This document shows positions 44,225 to 52,748 of a stretch of 64,000 bases of DNA, piece by piece. This DNA is from Pseudomonas sp. B21-056 (GTDB lineage: Bacteria; Pseudomonadota; Gammaproteobacteria; Pseudomonadales; Pseudomonadaceae). How positions within the stretch are numbered: position 1 is the first letter of the stretch; each line of letters opens with the position of its first letter. The position numbers were made by a program, and so were the translations under genes. The stretch covers positions 620,001 through 684,000 of the forward strand of contig NZ_CP087203.1 of the NCBI RefSeq assembly GCF_026016325.1. The letters run 5' to 3'. The notes beneath the pieces are model-generated. The model searched no databases. It saw only the letters and a program-made list of their open reading frames with translations, and was not told the DNA's origin.

Positions 44225-44272
44225 GGTCGGGTGAGCCGGGTCTTTCTTTCATGAAGATCCACTGTGGGAGCG

Positions 44273-44351
44273 GGCCTGCTCGCGATGGCAATGGTTCAGC
44301 TGGCATCTGCGTCGACTGACCCCCGCTATCGCGAGCAGGCTCGCTCCCACA
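44273..44351. repeat. Type A inverted repeat pair between amaB and amaA
   Basis: TGTGGGAGCGGGCCTGCTCGCGATGG with one change (GCGGGC for GCGAGC) facing CGCTATCGCGAGCAGGCTCGCTCCCACA. Confidence 0.9.
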
Positions 44352-44392: not shown

Positions 44393-45676
44393 ATGCCGTT
44401 ACGCGAAGAATGTCTGTGGGAAAAACTGACGCCGCAAAGGCCTGAAAACACTGCGCTCAGCGGTGAGGTCACGGTGGATGTCTGTGTGATTGGTGCAGGC
44501 TTCACCGGGTTGTCGGCGGCGGTGCATTTGCTGGAACAAGGCAAGCGCGTCGCGGTGCTGGAGGCTCATCGGACCGGGCATGGCGGCTCGGGGCGCAATG
44601 TCGGGCTGGTGAACGCTGGCCTGTGGATCCCACCGGACGAGATCGAGGCCGGCTTCGGCGAAGCCGTCGGCAGCCAGCTCAACCGCATGCTGGGGGCCGC
44701 GCCGGCACTGGTGTTCAGCCTTGTCGACAAATACAACATCGATTGCCAGTTGCGCCGCGAAGGCACGCTGCACATGGCCCATAACGCCCGGGGCGAGGCG
44801 GACCTGCGCAGTCGCGAAGCACAGTGGAAGCGCCGTGGCGCGCCGGTGGAACTGCTCACCGGCCAGGCCTGCATCGAAGCCACCGGCACACCGAAAATCG
44901 CCGCGGCCTTGTTGGATCGGCGCGCCGGCACGCTCAACCCAATGGCTTATGTCAGTGGGCTGGCCAAGGCTGCCTCGGACCTGGGTGCTCAGATGTTTGA
45001 CCACTCCCCCGTGACACGCCTGGAGCGCCAGGGCCAGCGCTGGTCGGTACAGACGGCCCAGGGTTCGGTACTGGCCGAGCAGGTGGTGATCGCCTCCAAT
45101 GCCTACACCGAAGGCGAATGGACCGAACTGCGGCGCAATTTCTTCCCCGGTTATTACTACCAGGTGGCGTCCGTCCCGTTGACCGGCGAGGCGGCGCAAC
45201 GCATCTTGCCGGGCGGCCAGGGATCGTGGGATACCCGCCAGGTATTGAGCAGCATCCGCCGCGACAAGGACGGGCGCCTGTTGCTGGGCAGCCTGGGTAA
45301 TGGCAACCGCAAGCCCACCTGGTTCCTCAAGGCCTGGGCGGATCGGGTACAGCAGCACTACTTCCCCTACCTCAAGTCGGTGGAGTGGGAGTCGACCTGG
45401 ACCGGCTGTATCGCTTTCACCCCCGACCATCTGATGCGCCTGTTCGAGCCGGCACCCGGATTGGTGGCGGTTACCGGTTACAACGGGCGGGGCGTGACCA
45501 CCGGAACGGTGGTGGGCAAGGCCTTTGCCGATTACCTGTGCCATGGCGACGCGAAAGCGTTACCGATCCCCTTTGCGCCGATGCAGCCGGTGACCGGGGC
45601 GGGTGTGCGCAGTTGTCTGTATGAGGCTGGGTTCTCGCTGTATCACGCGGGCCAGTGCCTGCGGATCGTCATTTGA
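44393..45676 (+). CDS. amaA: L-pipecolate oxidase
   Basis: A 427-residue FAD-dependent oxidase of the DAO family. The dinucleotide-binding motif VCVIGAGFTGLSAAVHLLEQGKRVAVLEAHRTGHGGSGRNVGLVN opens the protein. TWTGCIAFTPDHLMRLFEPAPGLVAVTGYNGRGVTTGTVVGKAFADYL closes the FAD site. Together with amaB it forms the pipecolate branch of lysine catabolism: AmaA oxidises L-pipecolate to piperideine-6-carboxylate. The family assignment rests largely on the amaB neighbourhood. Confidence 0.88.
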   Translation: MPLREECLWEKLTPQRPENTALSGEVTVDVCVIGAGFTGLSAAVHLLEQGKRVAVLEAHRTGHGGSGRNVGLVNAGLWIPPDEIEAGFGEAVGSQLNRMLGAAPALVFSLVDKYNIDCQLRREGTLHMAHNARGEADLRSREAQWKRRGAPVELLTGQACIEATGTPKIAAALLDRRAGTLNPMAYVSGLAKAASDLGAQMFDHSPVTRLERQGQRWSVQTAQGSVLAEQVVIASNAYTEGEWTELRRNFFPGYYYQVASVPLTGEAAQRILPGGQGSWDTRQVLSSIRRDKDGRLLLGSLGNGNRKPTWFLKAWADRVQQHYFPYLKSVEWESTWTGCIAFTPDHLMRLFEPAPGLVAVTGYNGRGVTTGTVVGKAFADYLCHGDAKALPIPFAPMQPVTGAGVRSCLYEAGFSLYHAGQCLRIVI

Positions 45677-45738
45677 GTGTTGAAAATTGTTGCCGGAACC
45701 GGTTTTTTCCGGCACAGCGTCTAGCCTGTTATGGTGCG

Positions 45739-45896
45739 GGTTGTAGCAGTTGCGCACCGGCAGTGTGCAGTTCGGTGACGCAGGTTGTTACAGGCTGGTT
45801 GCACGCCGTTTCGTGCGATGGTTGCAATGATGGCTCATGGAAGGTTGTACTCATTTAAGCGACAGGTTGCACCTTGCGCGGTTTAGACGGTTGCAC
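45739..45896. promoter_or_regulatory. Helically phased array of GGTTGYA direct repeats
   Basis: Seven copies of GGTTGYAN start at 45739, 45783, 45797, 45820, 45843, 45865 and 45889. The last five are 23, 23, 22 and 24 bases apart, i.e. about two helical turns, so the repeats face the same side of the DNA. The first is 44 bases before the second. They end 72 bases upstream of the sigma-54 promoter at 45969. This is the layout expected for an enhancer-binding protein's upstream sites. The binding protein is not known to me. The remainder of the 366-base gap between amaA and the liv genes has no gene. Confidence 0.55.
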
Positions 45897-45968
45897 GCCC
45901 TGTGAAAAAGGGTCCGAAACAGTCGAAATAACAATAAAGCAGCGACTTTTTTCAGAATAAAAAACCGA

Positions 45969-45984
45969 TGGCACGGCCCTTGCT
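45969..45984 (+). promoter_or_regulatory. Sigma-54 (RpoN) promoter of the liv operon
   Basis: TGGCACGGCCCTTGCT matches the sigma-54 -24/-12 consensus TGGCACGNNNNTTGCW at every fixed base, with the right spacing between GG and GC. The predicted start is about 12 bases downstream, leaving a leader of about 47 bases before the substrate-binding-protein gene. Confidence 0.85.
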
Positions 45985-46042
45985 CTGAGCTTTTCAGTGA
46001 AGTCGCAGTGCCAACTAAAAAAAAACCTTGGAGCACCACCTC

Positions 46043-47179
46043 ATGTCCCAGACGTTTTACAAGAAAGGCTTTCTGGCCCTCGCCGTTACCGCGGCAATGG
46101 GTGTTTCCGCGTTTGCCCATGCAGACTTCAAGATCGGTGTAGCGGGTCCCATGACTGGCGCCAACGCAGCATTTGGCGAGCAGTACATGAAAGGGGCGCA
46201 GGCGGCAGCGGACGAAATCAACGCCAAGGGCGGTGTGAACGGCGAGAAGATCGTGCTGGTGAAGGGTGACGACGCTTGCGAGCCGAAGCAGGCGGTGGCC
46301 GTGGCCAACCGTTTCGTCGACCAGGACAAGGTGAACGCCGTGGTCGGTCACTTCTGCTCCTCCTCGACCATCCCGGCCTCCGAGGTCTACGGTGACGCCG
46401 ATATCATGGCCATCACCCCAGGTTCCACCAACCCGGCTGTGACCGAGCGCGGCCTGAATGCGATGTTCCGCATGTGCGGTCGTGACGACCAGCAGGGCAT
46501 CGTCGCCGGCGACTACATCGTCGACGTGCTCAAGGGCAAGAAAGTCGTGGTGCTGCATGACAAGGACACCTACGGCCAGGGTCTGGCGGATGCCACCAAG
46601 GCACAGTTGAGCAAGCGCGGCGTGACGCCGGTGCTGTACGAAGGCCTGACCCGTGGCGAGAAAGACTTCAGCGCCGTGGTCACCAAGATCCGCGCTGCTG
46701 GTGCCGACGTGGTCTACTTCGGCGGCCTGCACCCGGAAGCCGGCCCACTGGTTCGCCAATTGCGTGAGCAAGGCCTCAAGGACGTGAAGTTCATGTCCGA
46801 CGACGGCATCGTGACCGACGAACTGGTGACCACCGCTGGCGGCGCGCAATACGTCGATGGCGTGTACATGACCTTCGGTGCCGACCCACGCCTGCTGCCG
46901 GACAGCAAGTCCGTGGTAGACGCGTTCCGCGCCAAGGGCACCGAGCCGGAAGGCTACACCCTGTATGCCTACGCTTCCGTCCAGACCCTGGCCGCCGCTT
47001 TCAACGGTGCCAAGTCGAACAAGACCGACGCCGCGGCCGAGTGGCTCAAGGCCAACACGGTGCAGACAGTGATGGGCAAGAAGGAGTGGGACAAGAAGGG
47101 CGACCTGAAGATCTCCGACTACGTGGTCTACCAGTGGGACAAGGACGGCAAGTACCATCAGCTGGAAAAACAAAAGTGA
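46043..47179 (+). CDS. livJ: Branched-chain amino acid ABC transporter, periplasmic binding protein
   Basis: A 378-residue LIVAT/Leu-Ile-Val-binding protein. A signal peptide (MSQTFYKKGFLALAVTAAMGVSAFAHA) is followed by the mature start DFKIGVAGPMTGANAAFGEQYMKGAQAAADEINAKGGVNG and two Rossmann-like lobes. It may bind leucine, isoleucine, valine and perhaps alanine. It is first in a five-gene transporter operon, 171 bases ahead of the permease genes. A stem-loop lies in that gap. It resembles BraC/LivJ; which paralogue it is cannot be told here. Confidence 0.95.
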   Translation: MSQTFYKKGFLALAVTAAMGVSAFAHADFKIGVAGPMTGANAAFGEQYMKGAQAAADEINAKGGVNGEKIVLVKGDDACEPKQAVAVANRFVDQDKVNAVVGHFCSSSTIPASEVYGDADIMAITPGSTNPAVTERGLNAMFRMCGRDDQQGIVAGDYIVDVLKGKKVVVLHDKDTYGQGLADATKAQLSKRGVTPVLYEGLTRGEKDFSAVVTKIRAAGADVVYFGGLHPEAGPLVRQLREQGLKDVKFMSDDGIVTDELVTTAGGAQYVDGVYMTFGADPRLLPDSKSVVDAFRAKGTEPEGYTLYAYASVQTLAAAFNGAKSNKTDAAAEWLKANTVQTVMGKKEWDKKGDLKISDYVVYQWDKDGKYHQLEKQK

Positions 47180-51200: not shown

Positions 51201-51296
51201 CCCATGTGGGAGCGAGCCTGCTCGCGATCGCGGTAGATCAGTGATATTTCGATACCTGATGCACCGCTATCGCGAGCAGGCTCGCTCCCACATGGG
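51201..51296. repeat. Type A inverted repeat pair
   Basis: CCCATGTGGGAGCGAGCCTGCTCGCGAT and its inverse; the outermost ten bases also pair (CCCATGTGGG with CCCACATGGG), extending the usual palindrome. Confidence 0.9.
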
Positions 51297-51317: not shown

Positions 51318-51805
51318 TGTGGACAACAATCCCCAGCCCTTATCAAACCGCGACATAAAGTCGCCGCAAATAGTTGTTTTGTCACAGTTTTGACTTGTCC
51401 CCGTTTGCTGTGGAGCCGGCTGTGGGTAACGTGGGAGTATCTGGCTGGAAGCCTTTGGATACTTGGCTTGCAGGGGTGTGATCATTTTCTGATCAGGCGT
51501 TTTTTGGTGGGCATGGGCGTGGGTTGTCAACCCTTTTCTGAGGGTTGGTGCAGGCTGGTAAATCGGTGGGCAAGCCTGTGGATAAGTCTGTGACTAAACT
51601 CTGGAAAGACCGCTCTGAGGGCCGTAGTTGCTGGCTTCGCGCCATCGCCTCTATTGCTTCGGCTTATAGCAGAGAATCCGATCTGCACAACCTCACATGC
51701 AGGGTCAAGGGAAAAAAGTTTCCATACATCCCCGCAAAGCCTTATGCACAGCGGCCTGCGACGTTTTGACTTGCCCCCGATTACTGTGGACGTGGCTGTG
51801 GATAA
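51318..51805. other. Non-coding stretch with DnaA-box-like sites and a duplicated module
   Basis: There is no gene between 51297 and 51983. Within it, TGTGGATAA (the complement of the DnaA box TTATCCACA) occurs at 51577 and 51797, TTATGCACA at 51742, and one-mismatch forms at 51318 (TGTGGACAA) and 51421 (TGTGGGTAA). A module GTTTTGACTTGYCCCCG..CTGTGG..TGTGGRTAA is present twice, at 51387-51429 and 51763-51805, with the same 34-base offset. The pattern may mark a DnaA-titrating or replication-control site. This is a guess from site density. Confidence 0.4.
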
Positions 51806-51857
51806 GGTGCGGGCAACAGGCTGCAGCCCTTATCCTGCAAGGGCTGAAGGCGTTTGA

Positions 51858-52748
<891 letters not shown>

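Follow-up and report, generated by a model that had tools for sequence, protein, structure and literature searches.

Closest described systems and the livJ upstream region

Sigma-54 promoters are the textbook cases of regulation through DNA looping, for which IHF is the standard loop-shaper. At glnAp2, NtrC governor sites lie between the enhancer and the promoter and limit maximal expression. The region upstream of livJ in Pseudomonas sp. B21-056 shares with IHF-assisted sigma-54 promoters a DNA-shaping element, putative here, between enhancer and promoter, and an IHF-like site occurs in most of its array-free relatives. Unlike those promoters, the window has no site within one mismatch of what we take to be the IHF consensus; neither have 79 of 80 related loci (the best 80 of 595), and array promoters hold IHF-like sites at chance level. 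The governor sites of glnAp2 are likewise additional sites in this interval, but the repeated boxes are not palindromic and share 6 of 8 positions with an NtrC half-site. Like NtrC-dependent promoters, of which glnAp2 is an example, the region has a -24/-12 element, an upstream GCAC-N7-GTGC, a probable enhancer more than 100 bp away and an NtrC encoded in the same genome; it differs from them in its single full palindrome, off at 4 of the 14 positions specified by the consensus in the consulted part of PMC8743547, and in five GGTTGCAC direct repeats between enhancer and promoter. The CbrB promoters crcZ, crcY and PP2810 are likewise sigma-54-dependent, with several short non-palindromic subsites 20-25 bp apart according to the consulted parts of PMC6296734 and PMC8871633. 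One such TGTTAC subsite is conserved here, whereas the array has GGTTGCAC for TGTTAC/GTAACA, in a single orientation and five copies, and does not follow the F-R-R pattern. The array is not described in the consulted parts of PMC3480352, PMC8871633, PMC8743547, PMC2820453, PMC9159945, PMC5715377, PMC7801951, PMC5427061, PMC3325844 and PMC6296734, and the literature match to GGTTGCA that was looked into, in the part of its source consulted, is a primer.

The window analysed is a 64-kb stretch of assembly GCF_026016325.1 (NZ_CP087203.1, 620,001-684,000, forward strand). Within it, a 366-bp gap between the end of amaA (45676) and the start of livJ (46043) holds the boxes and the sigma-54 site. 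By curated score cut-offs, the genes 5' of livJ (amaB-amaA) qualify as L-piperidine-6-carboxylate dehydrogenase and L-pipecolate oxidase. The first-pass annotation had assigned the operon to branched-chain amino acid uptake; this specificity is unproven and should be read as an assumption, because livJHMGF follows the pipecolate genes and LivJ, at 400 bits, falls below the cut-off of 477 for the LivJ/LivK subfamily. The nearest solved structures, 3ip5-3ipc, are annotated amino-acid binding proteins. An A-rich run, ACTAAAAAAAAACC (46014-46028), lies in the livJ leader just 5' of the ribosome site and presumably resembles Crc/Hfq motifs. The features discussed below are as follows; alignment values refer to 81 rows (best 80 of 595 loci).

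44393..45676, + strand: amaA, L-pipecolate oxidase, the gene upstream of the gap (NF050086, 740.4 bits against a cut-off of 600)
45721..45727, + strand: conserved block CTAGCCT (0.94-1.0 identity), a possible sigma-70 -10 element or protein site, though a promoter scan gave no sigma-70 match
45733..45738, + strand: GGTGCG, NtrC-like half-site (GTGC conserved at 1.0; centre of the imaginary palindrome about 32 bp from the full site)
45739..45750, + strand: outlying box GGTTGTA with conserved GTAGCAGT (GTAGCA conserved at 0.98-1.0, the GGTT part less)
45754..45768, no strand: NtrC-type palindrome GCACCGGCAGTGTGC, GCAC-N7-GTGC, predicted from sequence and conservation to be the probable enhancer
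45771..45779, + strand: conserved TTCGGTGAC block in the alignment
45783..45793, + strand: GGTTGTTACAG, an imperfect box overlapping conserved TGTTACAG in the alignment and holding one CbrB F subsite, TGTTAC
45797..45804, + strand: array box 1, GGTTGCAC (this box and boxes 2, 3 and 5 from motif search and alignment)
45820..45827, + strand: array box 2, GGTTGCAA
45843..45850, + strand: array box 3, GGTTGTAC
45865..45872, + strand: array box 4, GGTTGCAC, which among relatives is the most degenerate of the five
45889..45896, + strand: array box 5, GGTTGCAC
45969..45984, + strand: sigma-54 promoter TGGCACGGCCCTTGCT (-24/-12), TGGCACG-GCCC-TTGCT
46043..47179, + strand: livJ, amino-acid ABC transporter binding protein, followed by livH, livM, livG and livF to 51130

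A regularly spaced array of GGTTGYA boxes

Six exact GGTTGYA boxes, all on the + strand, start at 45739, 45797, 45820, 45843, 45865 and 45889; the first of them starts 230 bp, and the last ends 73 bp, above the sigma-54 site. The first-pass annotation had counted seven, but the seventh, at 45783, reads GGTTGTT and matches imperfectly. Its five boxes 22-24 bases apart in a fixed orientation are confirmed, the successive spacings from 45797 on being 23, 23, 22 and 24. The motif itself is not enriched across the window, with 21 occurrences on both strands against 15.2 expected, but its clustering is not due to chance, since shuffling the 366-bp gap 200,000 times under a first-order Markov model gave at most 4 + strand boxes, a number reached once. 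A tandem-repeat finder did not detect the array.

A conservation check set beforehand found the boxes kept in close relatives. Among the best 80 of 595 loci (78 Pseudomonas, one Pantoea and one Paucimonas by title), 79 have at least two exact boxes and L022 has one; in the 81-row alignment of this set, the commonest base averages 0.93 in box columns against 0.62 in linkers, and GGTTGC is held at 0.89-1.0 in four of the five boxes. Spacing was followed in 102 promoters with at least three boxes, degenerate ones allowed (80 of them the best 80 of 595, the other 22 including this genome), where 343 of 390 successive pairs are 22-24 bp apart. In genus g14, two genomes carry five boxes at an exact 22-bp spacing, and two of the five read GGTTGCG. 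An array so regular, oriented and conserved appears best explained by protein binding.

The bound protein might be NtrC itself, if the boxes were low-affinity half-sites acting like the governor sites of glnAp2 and limiting maximal expression. Compared with the NtrC half TGGTGCAC, GGTTGCAC has two changes in eight positions, and the boxes occupy the same place between enhancer and promoter. This explanation is nonetheless improbable, given that the conserved GGTTGC has no conserved partner half in the linkers (mean 0.62 in the same 81 rows, best 80 of 595) and that direct repeats two turns apart ill suit a dimeric reader of palindromes. We consider it very improbable that the array is an RNA element or a leader transcribed from an upstream sigma-70 promoter. 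Conservation of CTAGCCT, which is present in g19 and g14 too, and a GGTGC/GCACC inverted repeat upstream would suit such an element, but Rfam has no match in the gap, and RNAalifold on 16 sequences gave double changes in 2 of 35 pairs and a covariation term of -0.59 kcal/mol, invariant pairs being uninformative. A structured leader with covarying helices was rejected on these results. A coding frame is hard to reconcile with spacings of 22, 23 and 24.

All boxes had also been placed on one face of the helix. This holds at a helical repeat near 11.3 bp and fails at 10.5 bp: phase coherence over the 102 promoters (80 of them the best 80 of 595) is highest, with a mean resultant of 0.93, at 11.3-11.4 bp per turn, against 0.32 at 10.5 bp. 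On relaxed B-DNA the boxes rotate by roughly 70 degrees per 23-bp step, and their location on a single face would therefore require underwound or wrapped DNA. For 9 arrays, a wedge curvature model yielded z values between -0.13 and -3.6, each toward more curved than shuffles; for 4 IHF-type gaps they ranged from -1.4 to +1.0. Intrinsic curvature may contribute, and as the whole cause it is neither favoured nor disfavoured by this model.

Among the places checked, which were samples of the matches listed, the array was found only at the livJ-type promoter. From the matches listed in 398 genus genomes, thirty places with two close boxes were fetched. A sigma-54 site and an exact palindrome mark 13 of these as livJ-type promoters; the other 17 have neither, 16 of them lying inside open frames of at least 163 codons. 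An open frame alone does not separate the two classes, because minus-strand frames cross some of the 13 promoters. A second sample, of 26 three-box places from this genome and 29 others (several places sharing one promoter), comprised 19 with a sigma-54 site, 16 of these also with an exact palindrome, and 7 in open frames of 163-1017 codons.

The palindrome and the likely activator

The perfect sigma-54 site reported before the liv operon is well founded, TGGCACG-N4-TTGCT being kept in 80 of 80 loci (best 80 of 595); the only other genome match to TGGCACRNNNNTTGCW precedes a gene resembling flgB by eye. The activator is another matter. The first-pass annotation had proposed an oligomer reading the direct repeats in place of the usual palindromes, but an NtrC-type palindrome stands shortly upstream of the five-box array and is kept where the array is absent. 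Exact GCAC-N7-GTGC occurs in 80 of 80 loci (best 80 of 595) against 2.3% expected in shuffles. In a further set of 59 LivJ-ortholog rows, it was found in 6/7 rows of g1, 11/12 of g19, 2/2 of g14 and 12/12 of g22 (31/33 together), and in 3/26 rows of the eight other genera (g16, g20, g12, g26, g27, g24, g18 and g21), those three lying more than 300 bp from the promoter. All nine array-free g22 promoters have the exact palindrome, and G010 has the array with a palindrome carrying one mismatch. The gap between palindrome and -24 element is 195-202 bp in 80 of 80 loci (best 80 of 595), 184-200 bp in the further array rows and 178-179 bp in array-free g22. Retention of palindrome and sigma-54 site in array-free relatives makes NtrC on the palindrome, rather than a repeat-reading protein, the likely activator of livJHMGF.

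The genome encodes NtrC (L214; TIGR01818, 795.8 bits, cut-off 558.6). This protein is 93-94% identical across the five genomes compared, and in its DNA-binding domain it can be aligned with that of NtrC in 1NTC. The window palindrome agrees with 10 of the 14 specified positions of the NtrC 17-mer, given as TGCACCAnnnTGGTGCA in the consulted part of PMC8743547. Elsewhere in the genome, two copies of GCAC-N7-GTGC are followed at 60-120 bp by a sigma-54 site; one of them lies before a gene that matches type III glutamate-ammonia ligase (glutamine-synthetase-like) over its first 198 residues. The GGTGCG half-site could fit a second, weak NtrC site. Strongly conserved words stand on both sides of the palindrome, namely CTAGCCT and GTAGCAGT (45721-45750) and TTCGGTGAC and TGTTACAG (45771-45793).

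A sigma-54 activator binding direct repeats as an oligomer, CbrB-like or other, accordingly has little room, and we consider it quite improbable. CbrB does provide a precedent in its non-palindromic 6-bp subsites 20-25 bp apart (consulted part of PMC6296734), and 76 of 81 upstream regions (best 80 of 595) carry its F subsite TGTTAC unchanged. The array-free relatives, however, retain the sigma-54 site and the NtrC palindrome, and every one of the 81 rows (best 80 of 595) departs from the CbrB pattern TGTTAC-N12-14-GTAACA-N15-19-GTAACA at 4 to 8 of 18 positions. The earlier statement that no described regulator has such a site thus needs qualifying, for CbrB is described with similarly spaced subsites, and stands insofar as the CbrB pattern does not match here. 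In the consulted table of PMC6296734, no liv or bra gene appears, by name, among the 61 CbrB ChIP targets. Extending CbrB control from P. aeruginosa braC (consulted part of PMC3480352) was rejected, the leader ACAACAAUGACAACA occurring in 0 of the 70 upstream stretches checked. These 70 include ten of a second paralog, about 46% identical. We take P. aeruginosa BraC to be this second paralog. The P. stutzeri gene PST2982, a 'braC' tabled with glnK and amtB1 in the portion of the source consulted, was set aside as its paralog is ambiguous.

A regulator linked to the array was looked for and none was found: PF00158, the sigma-54 activator domain profile, has no match within the 64-kb window, and the nearest regulator gene is a GcvA-type LysR gene beside amaB, presumably amaR. 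A survey covered 24 sigma-54 activator genes of this genome, 7 weak rows of 31 being left out. RtcR alone of the 24 combined reciprocal best hits in the two array genomes with absence from the two array-free sister genomes compared. By eye, the gene next to it resembles rtcB. RtcR was rejected on a survey of 38 genomes, in which 8 of the 22 with the array lack it and 1 of the 16 without the array has it.

A possible loop-shaping role for the array

Promoters without the array suggest what it might do. In g22 the array is absent from 9 of 12 rows, and the minus strand of these nine reads AATCAA-N4-TTR or near at -84/-85, with at most one mismatch in 6 and two in 3. In g19, row G470 has no array, a palindrome with one mismatch and, at -85, an IHF match free of mismatches; G542, also of g19, resembles it. 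Array-free promoters are enriched in IHF-like sites with at most one mismatch (7/10, all at -84/-85, against 18% in shuffles), and array promoters are at chance (7/102, 80 of them the best 80 of 595, against 12%); perfect matches number 2/10 and 0/102 in these same sets. The remaining 3 of the 10 say nothing, because two mismatches are reached in 83% of array-free shuffles (67% for array promoters). With 7% against 12%, array promoters are not clearly depleted, and 'mutually exclusive' would be too strong for array and IHF site. A LivJ tree was built from 48 rows, which simple patterns typed as 31 array, 15 IHF-type and 2 other; in it the IHF type arises twice, both switches being forced by well-supported branches. 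The two IHF-type sequences look alike, so that transfer of the segment is possible and independent events number two at most.

Our preferred reading, which we hold tentatively and with somewhat less than even confidence, is that of an NtrC-activated sigma-54 promoter whose DNA loop is shaped by a putative architectural protein on the array. Under nitrogen limitation, NtrC would bind the palindrome at 45754-45768 and reach RNA polymerase, 200 bp away, through looping of DNA that the GGTTGCAC array would fill. A putative DNA-binding protein would co-operatively occupy the five direct repeats and probably bend or wrap the DNA, letting NtrC meet the polymerase; in two lineages, an IHF-like bend site has seemingly replaced the array. 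From the sequence we infer that NtrC would occupy the palindrome, that an array-binding protein probably exists and that its role would be architectural rather than repressing. Against this reading stand the agreement of the palindrome with only 10 of 14 consensus positions, the mismatched palindrome of the array-bearing G010, the want of a clear depletion of IHF-like sites in array promoters, and the small number of IHF-type switches, two, one of them possibly transferred. In P. putida under nitrogen limitation, with orthology to livJHMGF not assumed, the ABC protein PP4864 was present only in N-limited cells, according to the consulted part of PMC3325844; PP4867 was 16.7-fold lower and transcripts were without significant change, which we count against.

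A bolder form of this reading is doubtful, though possible: an undescribed Pseudomonas protein would assemble on the 22-24 bp repeats and do IHF's loop-shaping job at one operon, arrays and IHF sites would interchange in evolution, and the 11.3-bp phase would reflect underwound or wrapped DNA. The strongest rival to the loop-shaper, rather unlikely in our judgement, is a repressor, anti-activator or second-signal regulator, sensing amino acids for instance, which would block or gate looping between NtrC and the promoter without being architectural. The position inside the loop suits it, as does confinement to the livJ-type promoter among the places checked (samples of the matches listed), occurrence at a single promoter being more what one expects of a dedicated regulator than of a general nucleoid protein. 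The excess of IHF-like sites in array-free promoters nevertheless suggests a positive bending role, and the search for a linked regulator gene had no success, the LysR gene mentioned above being the closest.

If the loop-shaper reading is right, a conserved repeat array may stand in for IHF at one promoter of a tractable genus, and array-type and IHF-type promoters would be natural replacements for testing the interchangeability of loop-shaping parts. The array may also lead to a new DNA-binding protein, and a widespread amino-acid uptake operon beside pipecolate catabolism is probably under nitrogen control.

Seven of the ten g16 rows (L181, L183, L185, L186, L187, L190 and L192) retain a sigma-54 site but have another layout, in which TGTTAC ... 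GTGCAACC ... GGTTGC ... GTAACA replaces palindrome and array; this layout is possibly of the CbrB type. Finally, repeats of other kinds occur around the operon. A REP-like inverted repeat, TGTGGGAGCGGGCCTGCTCGCGATGGC (44263-44351), lies between amaB and amaA, with arms 93% complementary and sub-threshold Rfam microRNA matches, and a longer one of the same kind, with 41-nt arms (93%), lies 3' of livF at 51201-51296. It is followed at 51318-51872 by degenerate repeats, GTGGATAAG and TGTGGACAA, which include a 110-nt pair 72% alike and are DnaA-box-like by eye.
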